A stretch of DNA of 64,000 bases, from NCBI RefSeq assembly GCF_041320705.1, contig NZ_JBGGTQ010000003.1, positions 124,001-188,000 of the forward strand, in the 5' to 3' direction. Position 1 is the first letter of the stretch; every line of letters starts with the position of its first letter. This document shows, piece after piece, positions 3 to 46,496 of the stretch. A program made the translations under genes and the position numbers. The notes under the pieces were generated by a model that worked only from the letters and a program-made list of their open reading frames with translations, was not told the DNA's origin and ran no database searches. Source of the stretch: Kineococcus mangrovi (lineage in GTDB: Bacteria > Actinomycetota > Actinomycetes > Actinomycetales > Kineococcaceae).

Positions 3-2794
3 CGCGTCCGCGCCACCACCGAGGTCTCGGCGGTCGTGGCCCGCCGCACGATCCTGGTCCTGTCGCTGCTGTGCTCTGCGCTCGTCGTCGGCGGGGTGGT
101 CCTCGTCGGCGACGGCCGGCTCGGCCTCGCCCAGCTCGTCACGGTGTTCCTGCTCTGCTCCGGGTTCGCCGGCGACCTGAACCAGATCGCCGAACGGCTG
201 CCCGAGGTCCAGGCCGGTCTGGGTGCCCTGCAACGCATCCGGGCGTTGCTGGGCTCGCCGTCCGAACCCGTCGGCGGCCTGCGGGCACCCGAGGGGGGCC
301 TCGGGCTCGAGTTCCGCGGCGTCGACTTCGCCCACCCGGGCGGTTTCGCGCTGCACGACGTCTCGTTCACGGTCCCCGCCGGGACGACGTGCGCCCTCGT
401 GGGACGCAGCGGGTCGGGCAAGTCCACGCTCGCGGCCCTGCTGTCCCGCGCGCTGGAACCGGCGCCGGGGCAGGCCCACCTCGGCGGCCTCGACGTCACG
501 GCCCTGGACCTGCAGGAGCTGCGGCGCTGCGTCGGCGTCGTCACCCAGCGCACGGAACTCATCGCCGGGACGCTGGCGGACAACATCACGCTGGGGGCCG
601 ACGTCGCCCCCGAGCGCGTCCGCTCGGCCGTGGAGTCCCTCGGACTGGGCGACTGGGTCGGGGGGCTGCCCGACGGTCTGCGGACCCGGCTCGGCCCCGG
701 TGGCAGCACCCTGTCCGCCGGGGAGGAGCAGCTCGTCGCCTTCGCCCGCCTCCTCGTGCGCGACGTCCGCGTCGTCGTCCTCGACGAGGCGACCGCGCGG
801 ATGGACCCCGTCACCGAGCACCGCGTCACCGCGGCCGCCGGGCGGCTGCTCGCCGGCCGCACCGGTCTGCTCATCGCCCACCGCCTGTCCACGACCGCCC
901 GGGCCGACCACGTCGCCGTCCTCGACGGCGGCCGGCTCGCCCAGCACGGCCCGCGCGCCGAGCTCGCCGCCACCCCCGGCCCCTTCGCGGACCTGCTGCG
1001 CGCCGGGGGTGGTGCGGAGCTCGACCCCGTCCACCACGCCGGCGAGGTCCTCTCCAGCCGGCCCCGCCGGCCCCGCCCCGAACCACCGGCGCAGCCGCGT
1101 CCCCGGCTCGTGCGGGCCGTGGCGACCGCGATCACCCGCCACCGGCGGTGGGGGCTGCTCGGTGCCGTCCTGTTCGCCCTGTGCTCGGTCCTCGGCACCT
1201 ACGGCGCCGTCGCGGGCTGGCTGTGGGGCCTGGTCGTGCAGGGCCTGCAGACGGGCGCGCCGACCGCGCAGGTGTGGTGGCCGGCGGCCGGGCTCGTGAC
1301 GAGCCTGGTCTGCGTGCCGTTCCTGCTGGCCGCGGCCCTGCGGGTGTACCCGCTGTGGTGGAACGCGGTCACCCTCGGCGCGCGCCTGGCGGTGCTGCGC
1401 GGGCAGACCCGCCAGCACCGCCTCGCCCGCGTCCCCGCCGGGGAGGTCACGGCCCGCAGCCTGGACTCCGAGCGGTTCGTCCTCTACGTCGACCGCTGCG
1501 TCGACCTCGTCATCGGCGCCTTCGTCGTCGCCGTCACCTCCCTCGTCGCCGGTGACCTCACCGCGGGCGCGGTCGTCGCCCTCGTCATGGCGGGCTCGGC
1601 GCTCGTCTCGGTCGGCGGGGCCCCGGTGGCCGGCCGCCGGGGCCGTGAGGCCGGGGACGCCCGCGCCGTCTTCGGCCGCGACCTCGGCTCGGCCGTCGAC
1701 GCGGCCCGCACCGTCAAGCTCGCCGCGGCCGTGCCGGACGTCCTGCGGCACCTCGTCGAGGTCGACCGGCGGCGCGTGCTGGCCTCGGTGCGCGAGCTGC
1801 GCGTGCGCGCGCTGCTGGAGGGGGTGCCGGGCGTCCTCGTCCAGCTCGGCACCGTCGCGACCTGGGCGCTGCACCTGGCCGGCTGGTGGTCGCTGGCCGA
1901 CGCCCTCCTCGTCGCCACCGCCGTCGCGGGCGCCGCCTACTACGGCACCGTGTCGGGGGCCGTCATCACCGAGGCGCCCGTCGCGCGGGAGTGGCTGCGA
2001 GCGGTCACGGCGCTCGCGGGAACGCAGGACGTCGTGCGCGTCCCGGCCGGCACCGACCTGGTCCGCGGACTCGCCCCGGTGCCCGCGGTGCCCCCGCGCA
2101 CCCCCTGCGGCACGTCGACCTCGACCACCTCACGGCCGTGCACGACGACGGGACGGTGGGCGTCCAGGACGTCGACCTGCGCGTCGAGGCGGGTGAGCTC
2201 GTCCTGCTCACCGGCCGCGTGGGGTCGGGCAAGTCGAGCCTGCTCGCGGCGCTGGCCGGGCTCGTCGACCACGAGGGGACGGTCCGCTGGAACGGGGTCG
2301 CCGTGCAGGACCCGCAGACGTTCCTGCGGCCGGGTCAGGTCAGCTACGTCGCGCAGGTGCCGCGCGTGCTGTCGGGCAGCTTCGACGACAACGTCGCCCT
2401 GGACCACGAGCTGGCCCGGTCCCTGGCCGACGACGCCGTCGCCGACGCGCGGCTGACCCGGGACGTGGCCGCGGCCGGGGGCCGGCACGCGCTCGTCGGG
2501 CACCGCGGGGTCCGGCTGTCCGGGGGGCAGGTCCAGCGGCTGGCGCTGGCCCGGGCGCTGGCCTCGGGGGCCGACCTCCTCGTGGCCGACGACGTGTCCT
2601 CGGCCCTCGACGCGAGCACCGAGCTGGAGCTGTGGCAGGCGCTGCGCGAGCGCGGGACGACCGTGGTGGGGGCGTCCTCGAAGCGGTCGGCGCTGCTCGT
2701 GGCCGATCGCGTCGTGGTGCTGGGGGAGGGGCGGGTGCAGGCCGTCGGCCCGTGGCGGGAGCTCGAGGCGGACTGGGGTCACCTGGCGGGCTGA
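3..2794 (+). pseudogene. Fused ABC exporter (TMD-NBD-TMD-NBD), 5' end outside the window, frameshifted near 2090-2106
   Basis: The reading frame is open from the left edge, so the start and most of the first membrane domain are missing. In order I see the last helices of TMD1, NBD1 (Walker A GRSGSGKST, signature LSAGE, Walker B VVVLDEAT, H-loop IAHRLST), a second multi-helix membrane domain and NBD2. NBD2 (Walker A GRVGSGKSS, signature LSGGQ) is in a different frame from everything before it. The first frame runs on as low-quality sequence to a stop at 2456, while good ABC sequence resumes in the other frame from about 2096 to 2794. One missing base in the C-runs at 2090-2106 would restore a single protein. 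This is either a real inactivating mutation or a sequencing error. The architecture resembles actinobacterial lipid or drug exporters; the substrate is unknown. Confidence 0.75.
2096..2794 (+). CDS. Second nucleotide-binding domain of the frameshifted ABC exporter
   Basis: This is the C-terminal ATPase domain in its own frame (about 233 codons), without a convincing start codon or ribosome site of its own. That argues it is the displaced end of the upstream gene and not a separate gene. Walker A is GRVGSGKSS and the signature LSGGQVQRLALARA is canonical. The Walker B region reads LLVADDVSSALD, with Asp where the catalytic Glu normally sits, and the switch region reads VVGASSKRSAL, with Ser where the H-loop His is expected. 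These substitutions match the degenerate site of asymmetric ABC exporters, paired here with the degenerate LSAGE signature of NBD1. Confidence 0.6.
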   Translation, partial: AHPLRHVDLDHLTAVHDDGTVGVQDVDLRVEAGELVLLTGRVGSGKSSLLAALAGLVDHEGTVRWNGVAVQDPQTFLRPGQVSYVAQVPRVLSGSFDDNVALDHELARSLADDAVADARLTRDVAAAGGRHALVGHRGVRLSGGQVQRLALARALASGADLLVADDVSSALDASTELELWQALRERGTTVVGASSKRSALLVADRVVVLGEGRVQAVGPWRELEADWGHLAG

Positions 2795-2820
2795 CCTCGC
2801 GGTGGACCGGGCCGGCCGCG

Positions 2821-2850
2821 ACGACGGACGACGACGGACGACGACGGACG
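2821..2850. repeat. 10-bp tandem repeat, three copies
   Basis: Three perfect copies of ACGACGGACG lie between the ABC gene and the next start at 2890. It sits upstream of a proposed leaderless promoter. No function is evident. Confidence 0.8.
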
Positions 2851-2877
2851 GGGGACGCGGGCCGTGCGCGCGGGTGC

Positions 2878-2883
2878 GAGGCT
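2878..2883 (+). promoter_or_regulatory. Putative -10 element, leaderless start of the 120-aa protein
   Basis: GAGGCT is followed by 6 nt and then ATG at 2890, with no Shine-Dalgarno between. It is a weak match to TANNNT, supported by the same spacing at many other genes in the window. Confidence 0.35.
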
Positions 2884-2889
2884 GTGCTC

Positions 2890-3252
2890 ATGTCGGACCC
2901 ACGGAACGAGAACAGGCGTCAGGGCGAGTCGATCGACGCGGTCCTGCGCGGGCTCCTCAAGCAGGGCGGGCTCGACCCGACGGCCGAGCGCCTCGCCGAG
3001 CAGGGCATCGACCGGCTCCGCTCCTTCCTCGGCAGCGGCCCCGCCCCCGGGACGACCGCGACCCCGGACGCCGGCGCGGGGCGGGGTGACGTGCAGGACG
3101 CCGAGGTCGTCACGACCGGCCGCGAGATGCTCATGCACACCATCCCGCTGCCCGACGGCACCCGCGTGGAGGTCCTCGTCCCCGAGCGCCTCACCCGCGC
3201 CGAAGCCGAGCGCGTCGCCGCCGTGCTGAGCGCCCTGGCCGTGGAGGAGTGA
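2890..3252 (+). CDS. Hypothetical protein, 120 aa
   Basis: I do not recognise a family. The N-terminal half is charged and probably helical (about residues 8-45, including SIDAVLRGLLKQGG). A Gly/Ala/Pro/Thr-rich linker follows (about 48-65), then a short C-terminal part with strand-like and helical stretches (MLMHTIPLPDGTRVEVLVPE, then an Ala/Glu-rich helix). There is no signal peptide or membrane segment, so it is probably cytosolic. The ATG at 2890 is chosen because good sequence begins there and a -10-like hexamer lies 6 nt upstream. Its stop overlaps the GTG start of the S4-domain gene (GTGA), so the two are probably co-transcribed and translationally coupled. Confidence 0.7.
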   Translation: MSDPRNENRRQGESIDAVLRGLLKQGGLDPTAERLAEQGIDRLRSFLGSGPAPGTTATPDAGAGRGDVQDAEVVTTGREMLMHTIPLPDGTRVEVLVPERLTRAEAERVAAVLSALAVEE

Positions 3253-3473
3253 GCGCGGAGGTCGTCGAGGTCACCGGAGTCGTGCGGCTCGGCCAGTTCC
3301 TCAAGCTGGCCGGGGCCGTCGACACCGGCGGGCAGGCCCGGGAGGCGCTGCTGGCCGGGGACGTCACCGTCAACGGCGAGGCCGAGGACCGGCGCGGCCG
3401 CCAGCTCGCCGACGGGGACGTCGTCGGCCTCGGCGGCGGCTCGTGGGCGGTGCGCGTGACGGACGACGCGTGA
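3249..3473 (+). CDS. S4-domain RNA-binding protein (YbcJ/RlbA-like), 74 aa
   Basis: This short protein is almost entirely one S4 RNA-binding fold: RLGQFLKLAGAVDTGGQA, then the diagnostic turn LLAGDVTVNGEAEDRRGRQL, then a final strand. Stand-alone S4 proteins of this size (YaaA/YbcJ type) bind structured RNA and are thought to act around ribosome assembly or quality control. The particular RNA partner cannot be read from sequence. The GTG start overlaps the stop of the upstream 120-aa gene by 4 nt, which supports both the start and a two-gene operon. Twenty nt downstream is the end of a convergent aldo/keto reductase. Confidence 0.85.
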   Translation: MSAEVVEVTGVVRLGQFLKLAGAVDTGGQAREALLAGDVTVNGEAEDRRGRQLADGDVVGLGGGSWAVRVTDDA

Positions 3474-3493
3474 GCACCGCCCACCGGTGAGCC

Positions 3494-4276
3494 TCAGCGG
3501 CCCAGGGCGTCGATCGCCGCGACCTCCTCGCCGCTCAGCTCGAACCCGTCGACGTCGAGGTTGCGCGCCTGCCGGTCCCGGTCGCCGGACTTGGGGATGA
3601 CGACCACCCCGTGCTGCAGGTGCCAGCGCACGACGACCTGCTCCACGCTCACCCCGTGCCGCTCGGCCGCCGCCCGCAGGGGCGCGGCCGTGCGGTCGGT
3701 GGCCTTGAGGGGGGAGTAGCCCTCCAGCACGACGCCGCGCTCGCGGTGGGCGGCGAGCAGGTCGGCGTCGTGCAGCGCCGGACCCCACTTCACCTGGTTC
3801 ACCGCGGGCGTGACGCCCGTGGCGGCCGTCAGCTCGTCGAGCTGGGCCACCGAGTAGTTCGAGACGCCCACGGCACGGACCCGGCCGGCCTCGCGGGCGG
3901 CCACCAACCGTTCCCACACGTCGGGCCGCGCCCGGCCCCCGGGCGGCCAGTGGATGAGCCACAGGTCCAGCACGTCGACGCGCAGCAGCCGCAGGCTGCG
4001 GTCCAGGAACTCGTCCTCGCGGCCGGCGTGCTCGTGGTGCAGCTTCGTCGTGATCCGGACGTCGGGCACGCCCGCGTCGGCGACGGCACGTCCCACCTCG
4101 TCCTCGTTCTCGTACATCGTCGCGGTGTCCAGCAGCCGGTAACCGACGTCGAGGGCGCCGCGCAGGGACCGGTAGCCGTCCTGCCCGCGCAGACCGTAGG
4201 TGCCGAGGCCGACGAGGGGCAGCGCCAGCGTGCCGTCGGCGGTGCGGACGTCGGTGGTCGTGGGGTGCTCGCTCAC
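3494..4276 (-). CDS. Aldo/keto reductase (AKR5-type), 260 aa
   Basis: Cytosolic NADPH-dependent carbonyl reductase with a TIM-barrel fold. The family tetrad is visible: Asp50 in RLLDTATMY, Tyr55 in the same block, Lys in ITTKLHHE and His in LWLIHWPPG. The C-terminal cofactor segment VVVIPKSGDRDRQARNLDV is present and length is normal. The closest named relatives are 2,5-diketo-D-gluconate reductase-like enzymes, but the real substrate is probably broad and unknown. Start GTG 4276 has no Shine-Dalgarno; a TAGCGT hexamer 7 nt upstream suggests a leaderless message. A strong hairpin separates it from the sugar transporter upstream, so it is probably its own unit. Confidence 0.9.
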   Translation of the reverse strand: MSEHPTTTDVRTADGTLALPLVGLGTYGLRGQDGYRSLRGALDVGYRLLDTATMYENEDEVGRAVADAGVPDVRITTKLHHEHAGREDEFLDRSLRLLRVDVLDLWLIHWPPGGRARPDVWERLVAAREAGRVRAVGVSNYSVAQLDELTAATGVTPAVNQVKWGPALHDADLLAAHRERGVVLEGYSPLKATDRTAAPLRAAAERHGVSVEQVVVRWHLQHGVVVIPKSGDRDRQARNLDVDGFELSGEEVAAIDALGR

Positions 4277-4283
4277 CTGCGCG

Positions 4284-4289
4284 ACGCTA
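4284..4289 (-). promoter_or_regulatory. Putative -10 element of the aldo/keto reductase gene
   Basis: On the minus strand TAGCGT lies 7 nt before the GTG start, consistent with leaderless transcription. Confidence 0.5.
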
Positions 4290-4333
4290 CGTCCGCTCCG
4301 CTGCGCGCGCAGCGGCGGGCACCGCGCCGGCGA

Positions 4334-4406
4334 CCCCGTCCCGCACCGACGACGCCCCCTCGCCCGTGACCGGGGAGGGGGCGTCGTCGTCGGTGCGGGA
4401 CGGGGT
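4334..4406. terminator. Long inverted repeat after the sugar ABC operon
   Basis: The left arm (4334-4361, core GCACCGACGACGCCCCCTC) pairs with the right arm (4374-4406) with one 3-nt bulge. It lies immediately downstream of the last permease gene (stop at 4418) and upstream of the aldo/keto reductase promoter. No U-tract follows. Confidence 0.75.
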
Positions 4407-4417
4407 GCGGGGGACGA

Positions 4418-5305
4418 TCAGTCCTTCAGGCCGGCGTTGATGTCGGCGTTCATGACGTAGCGCTGGAACACCAGGTAGATGAGGACCAGCGGCACGATCG
4501 AGATGACCGAGGCGCCCAGCAGGACCGACCAGTTGACGTTCTGCGCCCCGACGATGCTCTGGATCCCGATCTGCAGGGTGAACTTGCTCGGGTCGTTGAG
4601 GACGATGAGCGGCCAGATGTAGTCGTTCCACCGCCACTGGAACGAGAAGATCGCCAGCGTCACCATGATCGGGCGGGAGATGGGGAGCATGACCCGCACG
4701 AAGGTCGTCAGCTCGTTCGAGCCGTCGATCCGGGCCGCCTCGAGCAGCTCGTTCGGCACGGTGGTGAAGAACTGCCGGAACATGAAGCACCCGGTGGCGG
4801 TGATGATCGACGGGACGATGATACCGGCGAGCTGGTTGTAGAGGCCGAGGTCGCGGATGACGAGGAACGAGGGCGAGAGGATGACCTCGGTCGGCAGCAT
4901 CGTCGTGGCCAGGATGCACAGGAAGAACGCCTTGAGCCACCAGTTGGAGTACTTGGCCAGGGCGTACCCGGTCATGGCGCTGGCCAGGACGGTGAGGACC
5001 GTCGTGGTGACCGCCACGATCAGCGTGTTCGTGAAGTAGCCGGCGAAGTTGAAGCTCGTCCAGGCCTGCGCGTACCCGTCGAACGTCCACCGCTGCGGCA
5101 GCAGCGTCAACGGGTAGGAGAAGAGGTCACCGGCCGGCTTGAACGACGACAGCACGAACCACAGGACCGGGAAGCCGTAGAGGACGGCCAGCAGCCACAG
5201 CAGCACCGTGGTCCCGACGGTGCGGGCGGGCGAACCGCCCTCGCGGGCGGCGGTGCTGCGGCGCAGGGCCGGCGCCTTGGGGCGCGGCAGCGAGGACAGG
5301 GCCAT
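4418..5305 (-). CDS. Carbohydrate ABC transporter permease, MalG type, 295 aa
   Basis: One of two inner-membrane subunits of a CUT1 sugar importer. Six membrane segments are visible, starting with the block GTTVLLWLLAVLYGFPVLWF. The permease signature that docks the ATPase (EAA motif) is seen as ELLEAARIDGSNELTTF near the middle. ATG 5305 is chosen because it lies one base after the end of the other permease gene, and the sequence upstream of it is the other gene in a wrong frame. Order of transcription is binding protein, MalF-type, MalG-type. No ATP-binding subunit is encoded here; in actinobacteria such importers commonly share a MsiK-type ATPase encoded elsewhere (family knowledge, not seen). 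Confidence 0.93.
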   Translation of the reverse strand: MALSSLPRPKAPALRRSTAAREGGSPARTVGTTVLLWLLAVLYGFPVLWFVLSSFKPAGDLFSYPLTLLPQRWTFDGYAQAWTSFNFAGYFTNTLIVAVTTTVLTVLASAMTGYALAKYSNWWLKAFFLCILATTMLPTEVILSPSFLVIRDLGLYNQLAGIIVPSIITATGCFMFRQFFTTVPNELLEAARIDGSNELTTFVRVMLPISRPIMVTLAIFSFQWRWNDYIWPLIVLNDPSKFTLQIGIQSIVGAQNVNWSVLLGASVISIVPLVLIYLVFQRYVMNADINAGLKD

Positions 5306-5306
5306 G

Positions 5307-6275
5307 TCACGCCTCCCGGCGTCGGTTGACGAAGACCTGGAGCAGGGCGATGACCATGAGGACGGCCATGAGGACGAACGAGGCGGCGCTGGCGTAGCCG
5401 ATCTGCCCCTGCTGGAAGCCCGTGCGGAAGATGTACTGCACGATGAGGTTGTTCTCGGTGCCCGGGCCACCGCCGTTCAGCGACTGCAGCAGGGCGTACT
5501 CCTTCATGGCGCCCAGGCTGCCCAGCAGGATGACGATGAAGGACGTCGGCGCGATGCTCGGCAGCGTGATGTAGCGGAACCGCTGCCAGGGCGAGGCGCC
5601 GTCGATCGAGGCCGCCTCGTGGTAGGAGACCGGCACGTTGCGCAGGGCGGCCACGAACAGCAGCATGTTGAAGGCCGTCCCGCCCCACGCCGCGGCGATG
5701 GCCACGATGACCAGCGACAGGTTCGCGTTCGACTGCCACGGGACCGCCTCGCCGCCGAGGGAGGTGATGAGGTAGTTCACCAACCCGAAGTTCTCCCCGA
5801 AGATCCACCGCCAGATGACGCCGGCGACGATGGGGGAGATGAGCCAGGGGACGAAGAACAGGACGCGCGCGACGACCTTGCCCTTGGTGTGCGCGTTCGT
5901 CAGCAGCACGGCCGTCGTCAGCGACAGGACGTAGATCAGCGGCACCGACATCGCGGTGAAGAAGACGGTCCGGCCGAACGCCGAGTAGAAGGCGGAGTCG
6001 CCGAAGAGCTTCTGGTAGTTGGCCAGCCCCACCCACGGGGCCGAGCCCACCCCGGTGTAGCTGGTGAACGAGTAGTACAGACCCGTCACCGCCGGCCAGA
6101 CGAAGAACAGGGCGAAGAGCGCCACGTTCACGGCGACGAACAGCAGCGGCGCGAGGCGGTAGCGCGCCGCCCGGCGGCGGTTCGCGCGGCCCGAGGAGGG
6201 ACGCGCGGTCCGCGCGAGGGCCGCGGGGTCGTCCCCGACCGCGGCGGGGACCGGACCCGGTGTCGCGGGGGTCAT
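5307..6275 (-). CDS. Carbohydrate ABC transporter permease, MalF type, 322 aa
   Basis: Partner permease of the same CUT1 importer. A cytosolic N-terminus rich in Ala, Pro and Arg (about residues 1-35) precedes six membrane segments, beginning with APLLFVAVNVALFALFFVWP. The EAA loop reads YHEAASIDGASPWQRF. The ATG at 6275 is preceded by AGGAGG at 7-8 nt. The gene follows the binding-protein gene by 66 nt and is one base from the next permease, so it is clearly in the same operon. Substrate is not deducible from the permease; the divergent polysaccharide-enzyme candidate suggests an oligosaccharide. Confidence 0.93.
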   Translation of the reverse strand: MTPATPGPVPAAVGDDPAALARTARPSSGRANRRRAARYRLAPLLFVAVNVALFALFFVWPAVTGLYYSFTSYTGVGSAPWVGLANYQKLFGDSAFYSAFGRTVFFTAMSVPLIYVLSLTTAVLLTNAHTKGKVVARVLFFVPWLISPIVAGVIWRWIFGENFGLVNYLITSLGGEAVPWQSNANLSLVIVAIAAAWGGTAFNMLLFVAALRNVPVSYHEAASIDGASPWQRFRYITLPSIAPTSFIVILLGSLGAMKEYALLQSLNGGGPGTENNLIVQYIFRTGFQQGQIGYASAASFVLMAVLMVIALLQVFVNRRREA

Positions 6276-6341
6276 GGAACCTCCTGGGGGTGGACCCGGG
6301 CCCGCAGGCCCGGGTCCCTCGGGTGGGGCGGTCGGGGTGGG

Positions 6342-7637
6342 TCAGGCGATCTGCTCGTTGAGGAGCCGGACGATGGTGTCGACCGCCTGCTGCACGGTCT
6401 GCTGACCGTTGATGGCCTTGCCCAGCTCGTCCTTGGTGGGGTCGGTCGTGATGGCCTTGCCCATGAGGGTGAGCTTCTCACCGTTCTCGTTGCCGGAGGT
6501 GGAGATCGGGTCGGCGATCTCGATCTCCTTCTGGTAGAGCGCGTAGGCGTCCAGGGCGGTCTGGCTCGTCGCCGGGTAGGCGATGTCCAGCCCCGTCTCG
6601 ACCGGCAGCCAGCCGTTCGTGGCGGCGATCTCGGCGTAGTTGGTCGGGTCGTAGAGGAACTCGACGAACTGCATCGCGGCGTCCGCGGTGTCACCGTTGT
6701 CGAACGCGACGATCTTCCCGCCGGTGTTGATGTCGGTCGCCTGCGTGGGCTGGGCCGGGGTCGGGACGGCGGCCCACTCGAACTGGCTGATGCTCTCGGT
6801 GAAGTCGGCGACCTGCCAGACCCCCGAGAAGTAGGCGACGACCTGACCGCTCTTGAACAGCGCGTTCGGGTCGGCCCCCGACGTCCACACCGACTTGGGC
6901 ATCACCACGTCGTCGTTGAGGTCGACGAACTTCTGCAGCGCCTCGACCGTCGGGGCCTGCACGGAGAACGCGGTCCCGTCGTCGTCCAGCTGGAAGCCGT
7001 CGGCGCCGTGCTCGTAGATGAAAGCCCGGATCCGGGCGGGGGAGGCGTCGTAGACCAGGTCGTACTTGGCGCCGGTCGAGGTGCGGACCTGCGTCGCCGC
7101 GGCCAGGAACTCGTCCCACGTCCAGGTGCTCTCCGGCTCGGTGGGGTAGGCGACCCCGGCCTGCTGGAAGAGCGTGGTGTTGATGAACAGGCCCGCGGCG
7201 GTGATGTCGGACGGGATCGTGAGGATCTTGCCGTCGTCGGTCTCCTGGTACAGCTTGCTGTCGATCTTGTTCGTCGAGCTCGTCGCGACGGCCGTCAGGT
7301 CCTGCAGCTTGTTGGTCCAGATCGGGTCCAGCGAGGGTGCGCTGGCCACGTCCGGCAGCGAGTCGGCCTGGGCCGCCTGGCGCAGCTTCGTCTGGTACCC
7401 GTCGTAGGGCACGTTGACGATCTCGACCGTGATGCCCTTCTGGGCCTTGAACTCGTCGGCGAGGTCGTAGTAGCCCTTCGCCTGCGCGTCGCTGGCCGAC
7501 AGCCAGAAGGTGATCGTCGAGGCGTCCCCGCCCGAGGCGGAATCCCCCCCGCCGCAGGCGGTCAGGGCCCCTCCCGCGGTCAGGGCCCCGAGGGAGCCCA
7601 GGAGGACGGACCGTCGGCTCGTGCTGTTCTGGCTCAT
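6342..7637 (-). CDS. Extracellular solute-binding lipoprotein of the sugar ABC importer, 431 aa
   Basis: The N-terminus has a twin-arginine-like signal (STSRRSVLLGSLG), a short hydrophobic stretch and a lipobox LTAC-GGG at about residues 25-30. It is therefore probably exported folded and lipid-anchored. The mature part is a family 1 sugar-binding protein, starting with the typical strand TITFWLSASDAQAKGYYDLA and containing NVPYDGYQTKLRQAA. It captures the substrate for the two downstream permeases. ATG 7637 is preceded by AGGAAG at a suitable distance. The gene is divergent from a probable polysaccharide-degrading enzyme, and its promoter overlaps a palindrome at 7748-7768. Confidence 0.93.
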   Translation of the reverse strand: MSQNSTSRRSVLLGSLGALTAGGALTACGGGDSASGGDASTITFWLSASDAQAKGYYDLADEFKAQKGITVEIVNVPYDGYQTKLRQAAQADSLPDVASAPSLDPIWTNKLQDLTAVATSSTNKIDSKLYQETDDGKILTIPSDITAAGLFINTTLFQQAGVAYPTEPESTWTWDEFLAAATQVRTSTGAKYDLVYDASPARIRAFIYEHGADGFQLDDDGTAFSVQAPTVEALQKFVDLNDDVVMPKSVWTSGADPNALFKSGQVVAYFSGVWQVADFTESISQFEWAAVPTPAQPTQATDINTGGKIVAFDNGDTADAAMQFVEFLYDPTNYAEIAATNGWLPVETGLDIAYPATSQTALDAYALYQKEIEIADPISTSGNENGEKLTLMGKAITTDPTKDELGKAINGQQTVQQAVDTIVRLLNEQIA

Positions 7638-40066: not shown

Positions 40067-40124
40067 CCCGCACGACGAAGGGGCCCTCGCGCCGTCCGGT
40101 GCGGGGGCCCCTTCGTCGTGCGGG
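40067..40124. terminator. 20-bp bidirectional hairpin between clpX and the YceI operon
   Basis: Perfect 20-bp arms (40067-40086 and 40105-40124, core GCACGACGAAGGGGCC) with an 18-nt loop, between convergent stops at 40057 and 40130. Confidence 0.85.
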
Positions 40125-40129
40125 CCGGG

Positions 40130-40984
40130 CTACTGCTGCAGCACCGCCTCGACGTCGATCTGGACCTTCAGCGTCGTGCCGAAGACGGCGACACCGATGC
40201 CGACGGCCTGGTTCCAGTTCATCGCGAAGTCGTCGCGGTGCAGCTCCGTCGTCGCGGTGAACGCGGCGCGGGTGCCGCCCCACGGGTCCGGGCCGGACCC
40301 GGCGTAGGACAGCTGCAGCTGCACCGGGCGGGTCGTGGCCAGCAGCGTCAGGTCACCGGACAGGACCCACCCGTCCGCGCCGCGCTGCACCCCCGTCGCG
40401 GTGAAGGTGAGGGTGGGGTGGTGGTCGGTGTCCAGGAAGTCCGCCGACCGCAGGTGCTCGTCGCGCTGGGCGTTGCCGGTGTCGATGGACGTGGCGTCGA
40501 TCTCGACCTGCACGCTCGCACGGGTGACGTCCTCCGGGACCGTGATGACCCCGGAGAAGCCCGTGAACCGCCCGTTGACCGCGGCCAGGCCGAGGTGGTG
40601 GGCGCGGGCCGAGATCGAGGAGTGCGTGACGTCGATGGCCCACACGCCGGCCGGCGGCACGTCGCTGCCGCCCTGTCGGCGCAGGCGGACCTCGCCGATG
40701 CGCCAGGCGCCGGCGCCGGGGACGACGACGCTCGTGGCGCGCGGTTCGTGGGCCGCGGCGGCGACGAGCATGGTCGCCGCCCCCGCGGGCACCCCGAGAA
40801 GGGCGAAGCCGCCGTCACCGCCGGTGACGGCGCGCGCCACCTGCGACCCGTCGGCACCGAGGAGCGTCACCGACGCCCCGGTGACGGGCCAGCCCTCGCG
40901 GTCGACGACGCGACCCTCCCCGGTGGCGCCGCCATCGGCCGTGCTGACGGCGACCCGCGGGGCCGCCGCCGGGTCCGGGCTCAC
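40130..40984 (-). CDS. Carboxypeptidase-regulatory-like domain fused to YceI, 284 aa
   Basis: Two-part protein. Residues about 15-100 form a carboxypeptidase-regulatory-like beta-sandwich ([20 protein letters not shown], then [15 protein letters not shown]). Residues about 108-282 are a YceI lipocalin-like barrel: [66 protein letters not shown]. YceI proteins bind isoprenoid or other long lipophilic ligands and are often secreted; here there is no signal peptide, so it should be cytosolic. Its GTG start overlaps the stop of the MFS gene (GTGA). The N-terminal domain resembles those at the end of that transporter, including a shared AAAH...P.AT.V pattern, suggesting a joint function. The fusion is seen; the ligand and mechanism are inference. 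Confidence 0.85.
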
Positions 40985-43578
40985 CGCTGCTCCGCGCGGG
41001 ACTCGAACCGGGTCAGGTCCAGCGTGGTGCCGCCCTCGCCGGCGCCGAGCGTGATCCGAGCGGCGGACACGGTGTCCTCCTCGACGTCGACGGCCGTGGC
41101 GACGGGCGCGTACCCGGCGGCGGTCAGCGTGTAGTGGCCGCCGGCCAGGTCCTCGAAGGAGTAGCTGCCGTCGAGGGCGGTGACGACCGAGCCGACCACC
41201 TCGCCGTCGGCGTCCACGAGGGTCACCGTCGCCTCGCGCAGGACCCGGCCGTCGCTGGCGGCGACGACGGTCCCGGTGAGGCGGCCGCCGCCGGTGAGGA
41301 CGAGGTCGCAGGCGATCGCCCCGGAGTCGGGGACCTCGATGCTGCGGGCCAGCGGCCGGTGCGACTCGTTCTGCGCGGTCAGCACGTAGGTGCCGCCCAT
41401 GAGCTGGTCGAAGGAGTACCCGCCGCCGTCGTCGCTGCGGGCGGAGCCGACGACCTCCCCGGTGACGTCCGTGAGGGTCACCAGGGCCCCCTGGACGCCG
41501 GTGGCGCGACCGTCGTGCCCGTCCAGGCCCTGGGGCAGGACGTGCGTCAGGACGCGGCCGGTGATGGCCGAGCGGCCGGCGAGCACGACGTCGCGGGTGA
41601 CCGGGGTGTCCCCGACCCCGACGAGCGTGGCCGAGGGGGCCACGTGGGCCGCGGCGACGATGAGCAGGTAGGTGCCACCGGTCGGCAGGTCCAGCCGGTA
41701 GCCCCCGTCGTCGCGGGTGCTGGTGCGGGCGACCTGCTGCCCGGACTGGTCGGCGAGGGTCACCACGGCACCCGGCAGCGGCCGGCGGTCGTGGTGGCTG
41801 ACGGTGCCGGACACCGACAGGCCGGTGTCGGTGCGCGAGGACTGGGCGGGCACGCTGGGGATCTCCTCCCGGTCGGGGTGCGGGCGACCGTTCGCCGACC
41901 CGTCGAGCGAGCCGTCGCCGTGCACGGCCGTTCCGCCGATCCTCGCACTGCGGACGCCCTCCTGGCCCGTCGTGGCCGCGACGGCCGTGGCCGAGGTGCG
42001 GTCCGAGGCCTCCGGCGCGTCGTCGTCCGTGCGCAGCGCGCGCTCCTTGAAGAAGAGCGTGATGAGGAAGGCGATGAGCGCGAACGGGGCGGCGATGAGG
42101 AAGACGTCGGCGATGGAGGAGCCGTAGGCCGACTGCACGATCGAGCGCACGGGCTCGGGGATCGCACGCAGGTCGGGGACGCCGGTCGCGGAGCCCATCG
42201 ACGACAGGGCCTGGCCGGGGTCGATGCGGGCGGCGCGCAGGCCGCTCTCGAGGTGGTCGGTGACCCGGTGGCCGAGGACGGCGCCGAGCGCGGAGACGCC
42301 GATGGCACCCCCGAGGCTGCGGGCGAAGGCGATGAAGGAGCTGGCCGAGCCGAGGTCGCGGGGTTCGGCGACGTTCTGGACCGCCAGGACGAGGTTCTGC
42401 ATCATCATGCCGACGCCGAGGCCGACGAGGGCCATGAAGGGGGCGACGACCCAGTAGTCCGTGTCGTACTCGATGGTGCCCATGAGACCGAGGCCGGCGG
42501 TGAGCAGGACGCCGCCGGTGACCAGCCAGCCCTTCCAGCGGCCGGTGCGGGTGATGAACTGCCCGGCGATCGTGGAGGCGAGGAAGAGCCCGACGATCAT
42601 CGGGATGGTCATGACGCCGGCCATGGTCGGGGTCTCCCCGCGGGCCAGCTGGAAGTACTGGCTGAGGAAGATCGTGGCGCCGAACATCGCGACGCCGACG
42701 AAGAGGCTGGCCGCGGCCGACAGGGCGATCGTCGGGTTGCGGAAGAACTTCAGCGGGACGATCGGCTCGGCGGCACGTCGCTCGGCGACGACGGCCAGGC
42801 CGAGGAGGACGACACCGCCGGCGACGAGGCCGACGGTCCACCACGAGGCCCAGTCGAACTGGTTGCCGGCCAGGGAGACCCAGATGAGCAGGGCGGAGAT
42901 CCCGGCGGCCAGCAGGAGGGCGCCGAGGTAGTCGATCGAGACGTCGCGCTGGGGCTGGGCGGGCAGCTTCAGGCGGGTCTGGAGCACGATGAAGGCGGCG
43001 ATGGCGAACGGGATGCCGACGTAGAAGCACCAGTGCCAGGACAGGTGCTGGGTGAGGACCCCGCCGATGAGGGGGCCGCCGACCGTGGCCAGGGCGAAGG
43101 TGGCGCCGAGGTAGCCGGAGTACCGACCGCGCTCGCGGGGGGTGACCATCGAGGCGAGGATCACCTGCGCCAGGGCGAGCAGTCCGCCACCGCCCAGGCC
43201 CTGGAAGACGCGCAGGGTGATGAGCATGCCCATGCTGGTCGACAGGCCGGCGACGGCCGAGGCGACGACGAAGATGACCAGGGCGATCTGGACGAGCAGC
43301 TTCTTGGAGAAGAGGTCGGCCAGCTTGCCCCAGATGGGCGTGGAGATGGTGGTGGCCAGCAGGGCGGCGGTGACGACCCAGGTGTAGCCGGACTCGGTGC
43401 CGTGCAGGTCGTTGACGATGCGCGGCAACGCGTTCGAGACGACCGTGGAGGACAGGATGGCGACGAACATCCCCAGCAGCAGGCCCGAGAGCGCCTCCAG
43501 GACCTGCGCGTGGGTCATCTTCGGGGCACCGCCGGTGCCGGTGCTGGACGTCGGTGGGACGTCGGTGGTGCTGCTCAT
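40981..43578 (-). CDS. MFS drug exporter (DHA2, EmrB/QacA type) with three C-terminal beta-sandwich domains, 865 aa
   Basis: Proton-driven 14-helix exporter. Residues about 20-525 are a full DHA2 transporter: LEALSGLLLGMFVAILSSTV with helix 1, WGKLADLFSKK (motif A), QGLGGGGLLALAQVILASMV and LGATFALATVGGPLIGGVL (motif C). A hydrophilic linker (about 526-585) leads to three carboxypeptidase-regulatory-like repeats at about 586-670, 675-765 and 766-850, each with a G-x-V...GA-V-L core and a D-GGY/S-F...GGxY strand pair. With 14 helices the C-terminus should be cytosolic, unusual for this domain type, and consistent with the signal-less YceI partner. ATG 43578 overlaps the marR stop. Substrate unknown, probably lipophilic. 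Confidence 0.88.
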   Translation of the reverse strand: MSSTTDVPPTSSTGTGGAPKMTHAQVLEALSGLLLGMFVAILSSTVVSNALPRIVNDLHGTESGYTWVVTAALLATTISTPIWGKLADLFSKKLLVQIALVIFVVASAVAGLSTSMGMLITLRVFQGLGGGGLLALAQVILASMVTPRERGRYSGYLGATFALATVGGPLIGGVLTQHLSWHWCFYVGIPFAIAAFIVLQTRLKLPAQPQRDVSIDYLGALLLAAGISALLIWVSLAGNQFDWASWWTVGLVAGGVVLLGLAVVAERRAAEPIVPLKFFRNPTIALSAAASLFVGVAMFGATIFLSQYFQLARGETPTMAGVMTIPMIVGLFLASTIAGQFITRTGRWKGWLVTGGVLLTAGLGLMGTIEYDTDYWVVAPFMALVGLGVGMMMQNLVLAVQNVAEPRDLGSASSFIAFARSLGGAIGVSALGAVLGHRVTDHLESGLRAARIDPGQALSSMGSATGVPDLRAIPEPVRSIVQSAYGSSIADVFLIAAPFALIAFLITLFFKERALRTDDDAPEASDRTSATAVAATTGQEGVRSARIGGTAVHGDGSLDGSANGRPHPDREEIPSVPAQSSRTDTGLSVSGTVSHHDRRPLPGAVVTLADQSGQQVARTSTRDDGGYRLDLPTGGTYLLIVAAAHVAPSATLVGVGDTPVTRDVVLAGRSAITGRVLTHVLPQGLDGHDGRATGVQGALVTLTDVTGEVVGSARSDDGGGYSFDQLMGGTYVLTAQNESHRPLARSIEVPDSGAIACDLVLTGGGRLTGTVVAASDGRVLREATVTLVDADGEVVGSVVTALDGSYSFEDLAGGHYTLTAAGYAPVATAVDVEEDTVSAARITLGAGEGGTTLDLTRFESRAEQR

Positions 43579-44033
43579 GCGTTCCCCTGCAACTGCTTCT
43601 GGTGGGTGGACGGGGGGCTGGACGGGACCGGGGCGGCGACGAGGCGGCCGAGGAGGCGGGTGAGGTCGCCGACCTCCTCGTCCCGCCAGCCGTCGAGGTG
43701 GTCGAGGAGCCGGTCGACGACGGCGCGGCGGAAGGTGCGGATCTCCTGCACGCCGGCCGGGGTGAGGCTGAGGCGCTGGGAGCGGCCGTCGGCGGGGTCG
43801 GGGCAGGAGACGAGCAGTCCGCGCTGCCGGAGGTGGCTGACCTGCCGGCTGACGGTCGACAGGTCGAGGGAGAGGTGCTCGGCGACCTCGCTGACGCGCA
43901 GCGGTCCGTGCTGGAGGACGACGGCCAGCGCGGCGACGGCCGGGGTGTGGTGCGTGCCCACCAGCTCCCGGTGGGCCCGCAGGAGGTCCGGGAAGACGTC
44001 GGCGAGCGCTGCGCACGCGTGCGGTGTGGCCAT
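43575..44033 (-). CDS. MarR-family regulator of the MFS-YceI operon, 152 aa
   Basis: Winged-helix regulator. The recognition region is PLRVSEVAEHLSLDLSTVSRQVSHLRQRGLL, followed by the wing DPADGRSQRLSLTPAG. ATG 44033 (MATPHACAA) is preferred over the upstream TTG 44066 because a strong promoter (-10 at 44070-44075) puts the transcript start near the TTG. Its stop overlaps the transporter ATG (ATGA), so it is the first gene of the operon. An inverted repeat over its -10 is a likely autorepression site; MarR proteins usually release DNA on binding small aromatic or lipophilic compounds, possibly the pump substrate. Confidence 0.9.
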   Translation of the reverse strand: MATPHACAALADVFPDLLRAHRELVGTHHTPAVAALAVVLQHGPLRVSEVAEHLSLDLSTVSRQVSHLRQRGLLVSCPDPADGRSQRLSLTPAGVQEIRTFRRAVVDRLLDHLDGWRDEEVGDLTRLLGRLVAAPVPSSPPSTHQKQLQGNA

Positions 44034-44062
44034 GACGACCTCGATCGGCTCGGTTGGTGTGT

Positions 44063-44089
44063 GCAAGCAACATTAAGTGTGTTGGTTGC
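44063..44089. promoter_or_regulatory. Candidate MarR operator over the -10 element
   Basis: Inverted repeat GCAAGCAACA (44063-44072) and TGTTGGTTGC (44080-44089), 9 of 10 positions complementary, with a 7-nt spacer. It covers the -10. A second small repeat, GTTGC/GCAAC at 44085-44099, overlaps the -35. Confidence 0.65.
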
Positions 44090-44098
44090 TCCATGCAA
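44070..44098 (-). promoter_or_regulatory. Promoter of the marR-MFS-YceI operon
   Basis: Minus-strand -35 TTGCAT (44093-44098), exactly 17 nt, then -10 TAATGT (44070-44075). It is the best sigma-70-type match I found in the window and AT-rich against its surroundings. Confidence 0.75.
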
Positions 44099-44135
44099 CT
44101 CGATCCGGTCGGGCCGGTCGGTCCGGGCAGGGGGG

Positions 44136-44223: not shown

Positions 44224-44652
44224 TCAGATCGCGGAGTTCAGGCGGTGCAGGAGGTCGGCGAGAGCGGTCATGTCCTCCTCCGGCCAGCCCTCCAGGCGGG
44301 TGTGCAGCCGCTGCCGGCGCGCGGCGCGGGCGGCGTGCACCTTCTCCAGGCCGTCGGGGGACAGGGTGAGCCGCACGGCGCGCCCGTCGGTCGGGTCGGC
44401 CTCGCGGCTGACGAGGCCGAGGCGTTCGAGGAGCTGGACCTGCCGGGACAGCGTGGGCTTGCCGATGCCGAAGAACGTCGCCAGGTCCGAGGGCCGCGAC
44501 TCCCCGACGTCGTCGAGGCGCACCAGCAGGCTGTAGGCCTCCGGCTCCAGGTCCGGGTGCACGTTGCGCGCGGTCTCCCGGTTGATGGCGCGAGAGCGCC
44601 GCAAGAGCACGGCGAGTTCGCGTTCCAGCGCTTCAGCAGGGCCACTGACCAT
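44224..44652 (-). CDS. MarR-family transcriptional regulator, 142 aa
   Basis: Second, clearly different MarR protein. Winged helix: SRPSDLATFFGIGKPTLSRQVQLLERLGLV, then the wing ADPTDGRAVRLTLSPDG. It has typical dimerisation helices at both ends. Leaderless start at ATG 44652: TAGGTT lies 6 nt upstream. Its target is not evident; it lies in the same direction upstream of the marR-MFS-YceI operon, but a hairpin and a separate strong promoter lie between. It is divergent from padR-ino1 at about 180 nt. Confidence 0.88.
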   Translation of the reverse strand: MVSGPAEALERELAVLLRRSRAINRETARNVHPDLEPEAYSLLVRLDDVGESRPSDLATFFGIGKPTLSRQVQLLERLGLVSREADPTDGRAVRLTLSPDGLEKVHAARAARRQRLHTRLEGWPEEDMTALADLLHRLNSAI

Positions 44653-44832: not shown

Positions 44833-45414
44833 GTGGTCCGCAAGCGCGGTGACGTCGTCCTGCTGGCCGTCCTGGCGCTGCTGGCCGACGGCCCGATGCA
44901 CGGCTACGAGGTGCGCAAGCGCCTCGACCAGCGGCTGGGGGTGCTCCGGGCCCTGAGCTACGGGACGCTCTACCCCGCGCTGCGCGCCCTGCAGGCCGGC
45001 GGTTGCATCACCGAGACGACCGAGCAGCGGCTGCCGGGCACCATCAGCCCCAAGCGGGCCCGCGTCGTCTACGAGATCACCGCGCACGGCCGGGACCGGC
45101 TCGCCGGCATGCTCGAGGAGTCCGGCCCCGAGGCGTGGGAGGACGACGCGTTCGGCGTCCACTTCGCCCTCTTCGCCCGGGTCGCCCCCCGCACCCGGTT
45201 GCGCGTCCTGGAGGGCCGCCGCGCGCGGCTGCTCGAACGCCTGGAGCAGATGAACCGGTCCATCGAGCGCACCCAAGCCCAGCTCGACGTCTACGCGCTG
45301 GAGGCCCAGCGGCACGGTCTGGAGACCGTGCGCAGCGAGGTCGACTGGCTCGAACGCCTCATCACCGCCGAGCACCACCCCACACCCACCCCCACCCCGA
45401 AGGAGACCCCCTGA
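44833..45414 (+). CDS. PadR-family transcriptional regulator, 193 aa
   Basis: Winged-helix repressor with the PadR N-terminal block [24 protein letters not shown] and [20 protein letters not shown] wing follows in [18 protein letters not shown]. The C-terminal half is the long vinculin-like dimerisation helix pair ([18 protein letters not shown]). The GTG start follows GAGGAG. Its stop TGA shares a base with the ATG of ino1, so the two are one operon. A PadR gene next to ino1 is also known in mycobacteria (Rv0047c beside Rv0046c, family knowledge). Probable effector: a polyol or phosphate metabolite; unknown. Confidence 0.92.
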
Positions 45415-46496
45415 TGGCTGGTCCCATCCGCGTCGCGATCGTCGGCGTCGGCAACTGCGCCGCCTCGCTCGTCCAGGGCGTGCACCACTACCGCGACGCC
45501 GACCCGGCACAGCCCGTCCCCGGGCTCATGCACGTGCGGTTCGGCGACTACCACGTGGGCGACGTCGAGTTCGTCGCCGCGTTCGACGTCGACGACAAGA
45601 AGGTCGGCCTCGACCTCGCCGACGCCATCGGCGCGTCGGAGAACAACACGGTCAAGATCTGCGACGTCCCGGCCACGGGTGTGACCGTGCAGCGCGGCCA
45701 CACCCTCGACGGTCTCGGCAAGTACTACCGCGAGACGATCAGCGAGTCCGCGGCCGAACCGGTCGACGTCGTCGCCGCCCTGCGCGAGGCGAAGGCCGAC
45801 GTCCTCGTCTGCTACCTGCCCGTGGGGTCCGAGGACGCGGCGATGTTCTACGCCCAGTGCGCCATCGACGCGAAGGTCGCCTTCGTCAACGCCCTGCCCG
45901 TCTTCATCGCCGGCACCCCCGAGTGGGCGCAGAAGTTCACCGACGCCGGTGTCCCGATCGTCGGCGACGACATCAAGTCCCAGGTCGGCGCGACCATCAC
46001 CCACCGCGTCCTGGCCAAGCTGCTGGAGGACCGCGGGATCAAGCTGGAGCGGACCTACCAGCTGAACGTCGGCGGGAACATGGACTTCAAGAACATGCTC
46101 GAGCGCGACCGGCTGGAGTCCAAGAAGATCTCCAAGACGCAGGCCGTCACCTCCAACGTCGAGGCCGACTTCGGCACCCGCAACGTCCACATCGGTCCCA
46201 GCGACTACGTCCAGTGGCTCGACGACCGCAAGTGGGCCTACGTCCGGCTGGAGGGCAAGGCGTTCGGCGACGTCCCGCTGAACCTGGAGTACAAGCTCGA
46301 GGTGTGGGACTCCCCGAACTCCGCCGGCGTCATCATCGACGCCGTCCGCGCCGCCAAGATCGGCCTGGACCGCGGGATCGGCGGCCCGCTGCTGTCCCCG
46401 TCGGCCTACTTCATGAAGTCCCCGCCGGAGCAGCGCGACGACGAGACCGGCCGCGCCGGCGTCGAGGCGTTCATCGCGGGCACCGTCGAACGCTGA
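45414..46496 (+). CDS. ino1: Inositol-3-phosphate synthase, 360 aa
   Basis: NAD-dependent conversion of glucose 6-phosphate to inositol 3-phosphate, precursor of mycothiol and phosphatidylinositol in actinobacteria. The N-terminal Rossmann motif is [17 protein letters not shown]. Active-site blocks include [30 protein letters not shown] (bacterial Ino1 signature) and KISKTQAV. The short about 360-aa form is the actinobacterial type, not the about 530-aa eukaryotic one. ATG 45414 has GAAGGAG upstream and overlaps the padR stop by one base. Confidence 0.96.

Follow-up and report, generated by a model that had tools for sequence, protein, structure and literature searches.

A predicted cytosolic three-domain tail on a MarR-linked actinobacterial exporter is genetically linked to a YceI fusion protein

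The window analyzed here is a 64,000-nucleotide stretch of the Kineococcus mangrovi genome (contig NZ_JBGGTQ010000003.1, positions 124,001 to 188,000), and its minus strand carries genes for a MarR-family repressor, an exporter of the major facilitator superfamily (MFS) with a C-terminal tail, and a YceI-family protein. The tail consists of three CarboxypepD_reg domains (CPDs; R1-R2-R3 in their order in the pump), and the YceI protein is fused to one CPD of its own (CPD-YceI). Many soil actinobacteria share this arrangement. The linkage between pump and CPD-YceI is well supported: in a sample of 51 genomes of one actinobacterial family, which gave a list of 48 close pump relatives, 21 of the 22 tailed relatives adjoin a CPD-YceI gene and none of the 26 tail-less ones does. 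Judged by co-conservation, the view that the three genes form one functional unit is supported. We tentatively propose, with somewhat more doubt than confidence, that they form a drug- or lipophile-inducible operon for the cytosolic capture and export of hydrophobic compounds, in which R1-R2-R3 and CPD-YceI would cooperate.

Results

The MarR gene (43575..44066), the pump gene (40981..43578) and the CPD-YceI gene (40130..40984) overlap by 4 nucleotides at each junction (ATGA between MarR and pump, GTGA between pump and CPD-YceI). Open reading frame (ORF) coordinates and Pfam matches bear out the three overlapping genes of a preliminary description of this DNA. The repressor (P0003) matches PF12802 (43.1 bits) and PF01047 (38.4 bits); it has 163 amino acids from a TTG start at 44066 or 152 from an ATG at 44033, which is the likelier start. 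The closest named relatives are from Kineococcus (70-76% identity).

The pump (P0001, 865 amino acids) is a 14-helix exporter of the DHA2/EmrB type, with an MFS_1 match at residues 33-427 and a TIGR00711 (DHA2/EmrB efflux) match of 245.5 bits, above the curated cutoff of 230.2, that covers residues 30-509 only. Its best fold match is EmrB (8zal_J), MHAS2168, a homologue of Rv1410, is among the best, and the eight best span 470-510 residues. Hence, the pump shares sequence family and fold with the DHA2 exporters EmrB, QacA and EfpA, and the CPD tail is extra to exporters of this type. The preliminary description had placed three β-sandwich repeats at about residues 586-850. These are three CarboxypepD_reg (transthyretin-like) domains at residues 583-847 (41038..41832, minus strand), recognized by Pfam (PF13620, three stretches, 116.1 bits against a cutoff of 32.3) and delimited by our own hidden Markov model (HMM) at residues 583-668, 668-765 and 763-847. 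The AlphaFold model of the pump (mean predicted local distance difference test score [pLDDT], 79) has the exporter fold, a low-confidence linker at residues 519-584, which is probably disordered, and three folded CPDs, with pLDDT mostly 80-94 and lower in the loop at 682-689 and at the end.

CPD-YceI (P0002, 284 amino acids, GTG start) contains CarboxypepD_reg at residues 23-91 (42.0 bits, cutoff 32.3) and YceI (PF04264) at 115-280 (150.8 bits, cutoff 23.7), so the description of this protein as a similar β-sandwich fused to YceI was correct. It folds well in AlphaFold (mean pLDDT, 83), with an uncertain domain orientation (predicted template modeling score, 0.60), and its fold matches are E. 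coli YceI (1y0g, template modeling score of 0.88 by target length), PA0423, TT1927b, BcnB and BcnA. The name PA0423 is taken from the title of a PDB entry. The barrel is lipocalin-like and, by analogy with these proteins, probably binds hydrophobic molecules in the cytosol. The CPD of YceI matches R1 of the tails best, with up to 52 bits, modestly above the 31-32 bits that it reaches with the CPDs of YceI paralogues.

How constant is the association of these genes? We fetched the loci of the best 80 of 309 confirmed relatives, which had been found partly with tail peptides, so that the fetched set favors tailed pumps and the genome samples described below are the fairer check. Genes in all fetched loci, those of the genome samples included, were called with a home-made caller based on GC position, which trimmed starts and missed genes, including YceI in L154 and L155, which was recovered later, and the tailed gene in L235, which was not. 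A MarR gene lies upstream of the pump in 80/80 fetched loci and YceI downstream in 77/80, with L062 stopping at a contig border. All 81 pumps (80 loci and the window) have three CPDs, and one CPD is present in 77 of the 78 downstream YceI ORFs, the exception being L047, where it lies in another frame; a fusion of pump and YceI was sought and found in 0/78. The pump and CPD-YceI are side by side in 11/11 genomes of the window's genus, and a single genome of a sister genus contained neither of them at the thresholds used.

The genome searches scored the best candidates per genome, and their counts are lower bounds. In the class sample (148 genomes) the tail profile gave 40 matches in 24 genomes, and the 14 strongest CPD-YceI matches (E < 1e-59) were all directly downstream of a tail; CPD-YceI accompanied 14 of the 17 relatives of the window pump examined in this sample. 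The phylum sample (198 genomes) contained the tail in only 10 genomes, all of the same class. MarR is located downstream rather than upstream of the pump in three genomes (L154 to L156). A tailed pump gene in genome G081 (L144, 4324-7551) lacks a YceI neighbor and is frameshifted close to the end of its tail. Two genomes of the Kineococcus group (G152 and G156) have second pump copies (L197 and L198; 74% and 71% identity), one tailed and the other tail-less, and neither locus gave a YceI match.

The association of tail and CPD-YceI in the family sample is strong (Fisher p of about 1e-12, with relatedness ignored), and a recount that used all matches gave the same figures. Of 34 CPD-YceI matches in this sample (E ≤ 1e-42), the 25 strongest (E < 1e-65) are all found immediately downstream of a tail, and the remaining nine (E of 1e-45 to 1e-53) are paralogues without an adjoining tail, a division into strong and weak matches that was set after the gap in E-values was seen. 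A tree of 47 pumps was built to address relatedness, and in it the combined state of tail and YceI requires at least six changes on the starred branches, with the placement of the long branches L213, L145, L246 and L227 being unsure. L095, from the Streptomyces family, is tail-less inside a tailed clade, and the best match to P0002 in its genome (G143) is a weaker CPD-YceI located elsewhere; L246 has both tail and YceI inside a tail-less clade. In another family, 9 of 121 genomes have CPD-YceI at E ≤ 1e-50. The order MarR-pump-tail-YceI occurs here with pumps that share 49% and 36% identity with the window pump, the latter belonging to another DHA2 clade. In four genomes (L250 to L253) R1-R2-R3 is encoded as a free-standing protein whose gene immediately precedes that of CPD-YceI, overlapping or abutting it, beside a distant tailed MFS gene. 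R1-R2-R3 is thus next door to CPD-YceI in 8 of the 9 genomes, and the fact that this holds whether the cassette is pump-borne or free is the strongest sign that the two belong together.

The same pairing bears on a rival explanation, parallel resistance without contact. CPD-YceI would then be an independent cytosolic sponge that lowers the amount of free drug, the pump would export alone, the two would have only the MarR switch in common, and the likeness of their CPDs would reflect ancestry. Coregulation alone suffices to explain the operon, tails without YceI and CPD-YceI paralogues without pumps do exist, and a YceI relative is reported to sequester antibiotics (excerpts of PMC5350466). However, the pairing tracks R1-R2-R3, with CPD-YceI absent beside all tail-less close relatives of the pump, and a free cassette is still paired with CPD-YceI; we regard independent action of the two proteins as rather unlikely.

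Eleven MFS proteins, the window pump included, were examined with a simple hydropathy scale; there are 14 segments before the tail in 9 of them and 15 in L064 and L145, and positive charge, counted with the tail included, is greater on the predicted inside loops in 11/11. For two MMPL proteins the count was 13 and 15 segments rather than the expected 12, and the charge parity of L202 is uninformative (23 to 24), so that the topology of the MMPL proteins rests on general knowledge. By eye, no signal-like start is seen in the free-standing R1-R2-R3 proteins, no signal peptide in P0002 or in a 28-row alignment (no dedicated signal-peptide program was used), and no lipobox in P0002. A crude hydropathy test exceeded the helix threshold of 1.0 in 12 of 77 YceI N termini; to the eye, 11 of these are stretches rich in Gly, Thr, Pro and Ala, unlike signals. 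Helix parity, the signal-less free cassettes and YceI proteins, and the AlphaFold models together make a cytosolic location of the tail and of CPD-YceI a well-supported prediction, in agreement with the cytosolic tail and signal-less YceI of the preliminary description.

The tail is not confined to the relatives of the window pump. Its repeats are orthologous by position across the window pump, two other DHA2 clades, other MFS exporters and MMPL exporters in 89 of 90 comparisons and fail to be so in one; with repeat profiles, the median score was 80 bits for the same position and 40 for other positions. The window's own genome has two more R1-R2-R3 carriers, an MMPL exporter (L199, G000:C2:482500-492500, 2260-5991) and another MFS exporter (L200, G000:C6:90500-99500, 4289-7072). 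Of 84 tails in the family sample, 25 are with CPD-YceI, 26 behind an SRPBCC gene and 33 with neither; 20 of these 33 were fetched as loci.

The SRPBCC gene (PF10604) was considered as a second pairing with a hydrophobic carrier, as it adjoins a tailed pump or a tail remnant in 26 genomes. We judged this pairing weak because the gene occurs in 49/51 genomes and 24/50 of its loci have no adjacent tail. In Streptomyces, a second tailed pump lies behind an SRPBCC-like gene in L209 to L211, L213 and L214, the last with a tail remnant only (PF10604 was tested in L210). A 1,090-residue membrane protein with three CPDs, perhaps FUSC-like by eye, is encoded in L236 (1597-4869).

These distributions allow R1-R2-R3 to be seen as an accessory that serves actinobacterial exporters in general, in a structural or regulatory capacity such as oligomerization, positioning or gating, with the YceI pairing being secondary in some lineages. 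The presence of a position-orthologous cassette on MFS proteins, both DHA2 clades and others, and on MMPL proteins, often with a MarR or TetR-type neighbor and no YceI, agrees with such a role, which nevertheless leaves the near-constant adjacency of the strong CPD-YceI type to the cassette unexplained and which we consider unlikely. A wider version of our own proposal, which we hold to be rather doubtful, is that R1-R2-R3 is a transferable cytosolic adaptor of actinobacterial exporters. It would dock soluble binders of hydrophobic cargo, such as CPD-YceI and perhaps further proteins, on the inner side of unrelated pumps. Cytosolic drugs or lipids would in this way be captured and delivered for export, and the cassette with its binders would be a cytosolic counterpart of LprG-type extracytoplasmic lipid carriers.

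A 13-bp palindrome, TTGC-N5-GCAA, that closely precedes the MarR gene (44086..44098, minus strand) and occurs once in the window is the likely MarR operator. This core lies upstream of MarR in 80/81 loci and at 0.002 per kb elsewhere in those loci. The published SAV4189 operator, TTGCCYKHRSCAA, is present upstream of MarR in 73/81 loci, and the window has the core only, with two positions off the consensus. Available sections of PMC6036246 report that SAV4189 of Streptomyces avermitilis is a repressor of both its own gene and the MFS gene sav_4190, that hygromycin B and thiostrepton release this repression, and that the two antibiotics induce this Streptomyces relative about 70- to 143-fold. 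There, as here, the MarR gene is directly upstream of the MFS gene (SAV4189-SAV4190, or SCO4032-SCO4031 in S. coelicolor), the two being cotranscribed, and the operator is a TTGC-type palindrome; the sav_4190 deletion construct (flanks end at +104 and start at +2446) suggests a gene of about the length of a tailed pump. SCO4031/SCO4032 are also listed as rising upon chromosome relaxation in the accessible part of PMC6637917. By operator and layout, on which the orthology rests, the first two genes appear to belong with the SAV4189-SAV4190 family and are thus not undescribed, which does not bear out the remark in the preliminary description that its author knew of no described system with this arrangement. 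Neither YceI nor sav_4191 occurs in the text of PMC6036246, and the pump tail is not mentioned in its available sections.

SCO4121-SCO4122 (Nag and Mehra 2021) was considered as the orthologous pair and set aside. The fetched Streptomyces loci instead fit SAV4189-SAV4190 (S. coelicolor SCO4032/SCO4031) in both layout and operator. Furthermore, the S. scabiei locus L042 has two genes upstream that look like sigma factor genes by eye.

The neighbors of the operon in the window are a clpX-like gene (by eye) and a second MarR gene. A 20-bp perfect inverted repeat (40067..40124), read from the sequence between the convergent clpX-like gene and the operon, is perhaps a terminator shared by both. The second MarR-family gene, assigned by Pfam, lies just upstream of the operon on the same strand (44224-44652, minus), and four Kineococcus loci (L005, L006, L059 and L064) also have a second, weaker MarR match upstream. 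Further along, at 44833-46496 on the plus strand, a PadR-like regulator is followed by an inositol-3-phosphate synthase-like gene (both by eye).

Discussion

We hypothesize that MarR on TTGC-N5-GCAA silences the operon as long as no toxic compound is present in the cell, as is reported for the Streptomyces relative, and that export by the DHA2 pump follows once such a compound has entered. A flexible linker would suspend the R1-R2-R3 tail in the cytosol, consistent with topology and model, and the coencoded YceI lipocalin may capture hydrophobic molecules in the cytosol, as its fold and its Burkholderia relative suggest. Through its own CPD, CPD-YceI would work with R1-R2-R3, most likely by binding, and the captured cargo might be kept close to the pump's inner opening and handed off there.

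Several observations weigh against this cooperative model. The preliminary description, which had proposed a similar docking, held that the idea would fail if the fused domains were extracellular or absent from all homologues or if pump and YceI were not co-conserved. The domains are predicted to be inside and recur in homologues, and the two genes are co-conserved (77/80 loci, 11/11 genomes of the genus and 21/22 versus 0/26 family relatives), but tails without YceI are common, amounting to 59/84 in the family sample and, counting those without a strong CPD-YceI neighbor, 26/40 in the class sample. Other MFS and MMPL pumps are among these carriers, and docking of YceI is therefore not the only role of the tail. 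Among the 20 fetched tails without YceI, MarR is directly upstream in 7 and a TetR-like neighbor is present in at least 5 (by eye). Even close to the window pump, no YceI is seen beside the tailed pump in the fetched loci L045 and L071, and G081, G028 and G107 have tailed relatives without CPD-YceI. Conversely, one of the nine CPD-YceI genes of the second family (G442) has no adjoining tail, and pump-less CPD-YceI paralogues are found in L148, L149, L152 and L153. The CPD of YceI resembles R2 and R3 as well as R1 (49, 47 and 45 bits in one pump clade), hygromycin B is not hydrophobic, and BcnA, which has the same barrel, is secreted, while CPD-YceI is predicted to be cytosolic. Finally, deletion of sav_4190 is reported to raise the yield of avermectin, and the available sections of PMC6036246 give no drug susceptibility result for this deletion. 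The observations in the preliminary description are confirmed, and its interpretation is partly supported.

The pump-less paralogues in L148, L149, L152 and L153 sit near genes that look by eye like holA, rpsT and lepA.

What might the cargo be? Binding of hydrophobic ligands is reported for BcnA and BcnB, and BcnA sequesters rifampin, polymyxin B, norfloxacin and ceftazidime (excerpts of PMC5350466). BcnA, BcnB and PA0423 share the barrel of CPD-YceI and are single-domain proteins, while the window YceI is fused to a CPD. The cargo could also be an endogenous lipid or isoprenoid sensed by MarR, carried by YceI and exported by the pump, similar to LprG with Rv1410 (P55) in mycobacteria, where an MFS exporter has a soluble lipid-binding partner, as proposed here (PMC10576003 and PMC4709180, in part). 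YceI relatives hold octaprenyl ligands (title of 1wub; excerpts of PMC5350466), the best fold matches of the pump include the Rv1410 homologue, and a polyprenyl synthetase gene (PF00348; L204, 5435-6451) follows one tailed MFS gene. This last neighbor is a single case, though, the neighbors in the window are the clpX-like and second MarR genes, and it is antibiotics that are reported to induce the Streptomyces relative (PMC6036246, available sections). An endogenous cargo appears quite improbable to us. An isoprenoid cargo, as the preliminary description had in mind, is unsupported, and for the capture and export proposed here an antibiotic-type cargo is better motivated. LprG also differs in location: it is a periplasmic lipoprotein (excerpts of PMC10576003 and PMC4709180), whereas CPD-YceI shows no signal or lipobox by eye and the tail is predicted inside. 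In the open-access literature that we searched, no description joining YceI or CarboxypepD_reg with MFS pumps came to light, one listed paper aside. A MarR-controlled operon with a multidrug-type MFS pump is known in kind, and for the predicted cytosolic accessory module these searches yielded no description.

In summary, our data define a recurring three-domain module, predicted to be cytosolic, that MFS and MMPL exporters carry, and they connect an operon of Streptomyces that responds to antibiotics with a third gene that has been neglected, regardless of the mechanism. If the proposed cooperation is true, some multidrug pumps would be fed by a dedicated soluble intracellular carrier, which would change the picture of how MFS exporters gain access to their substrates.

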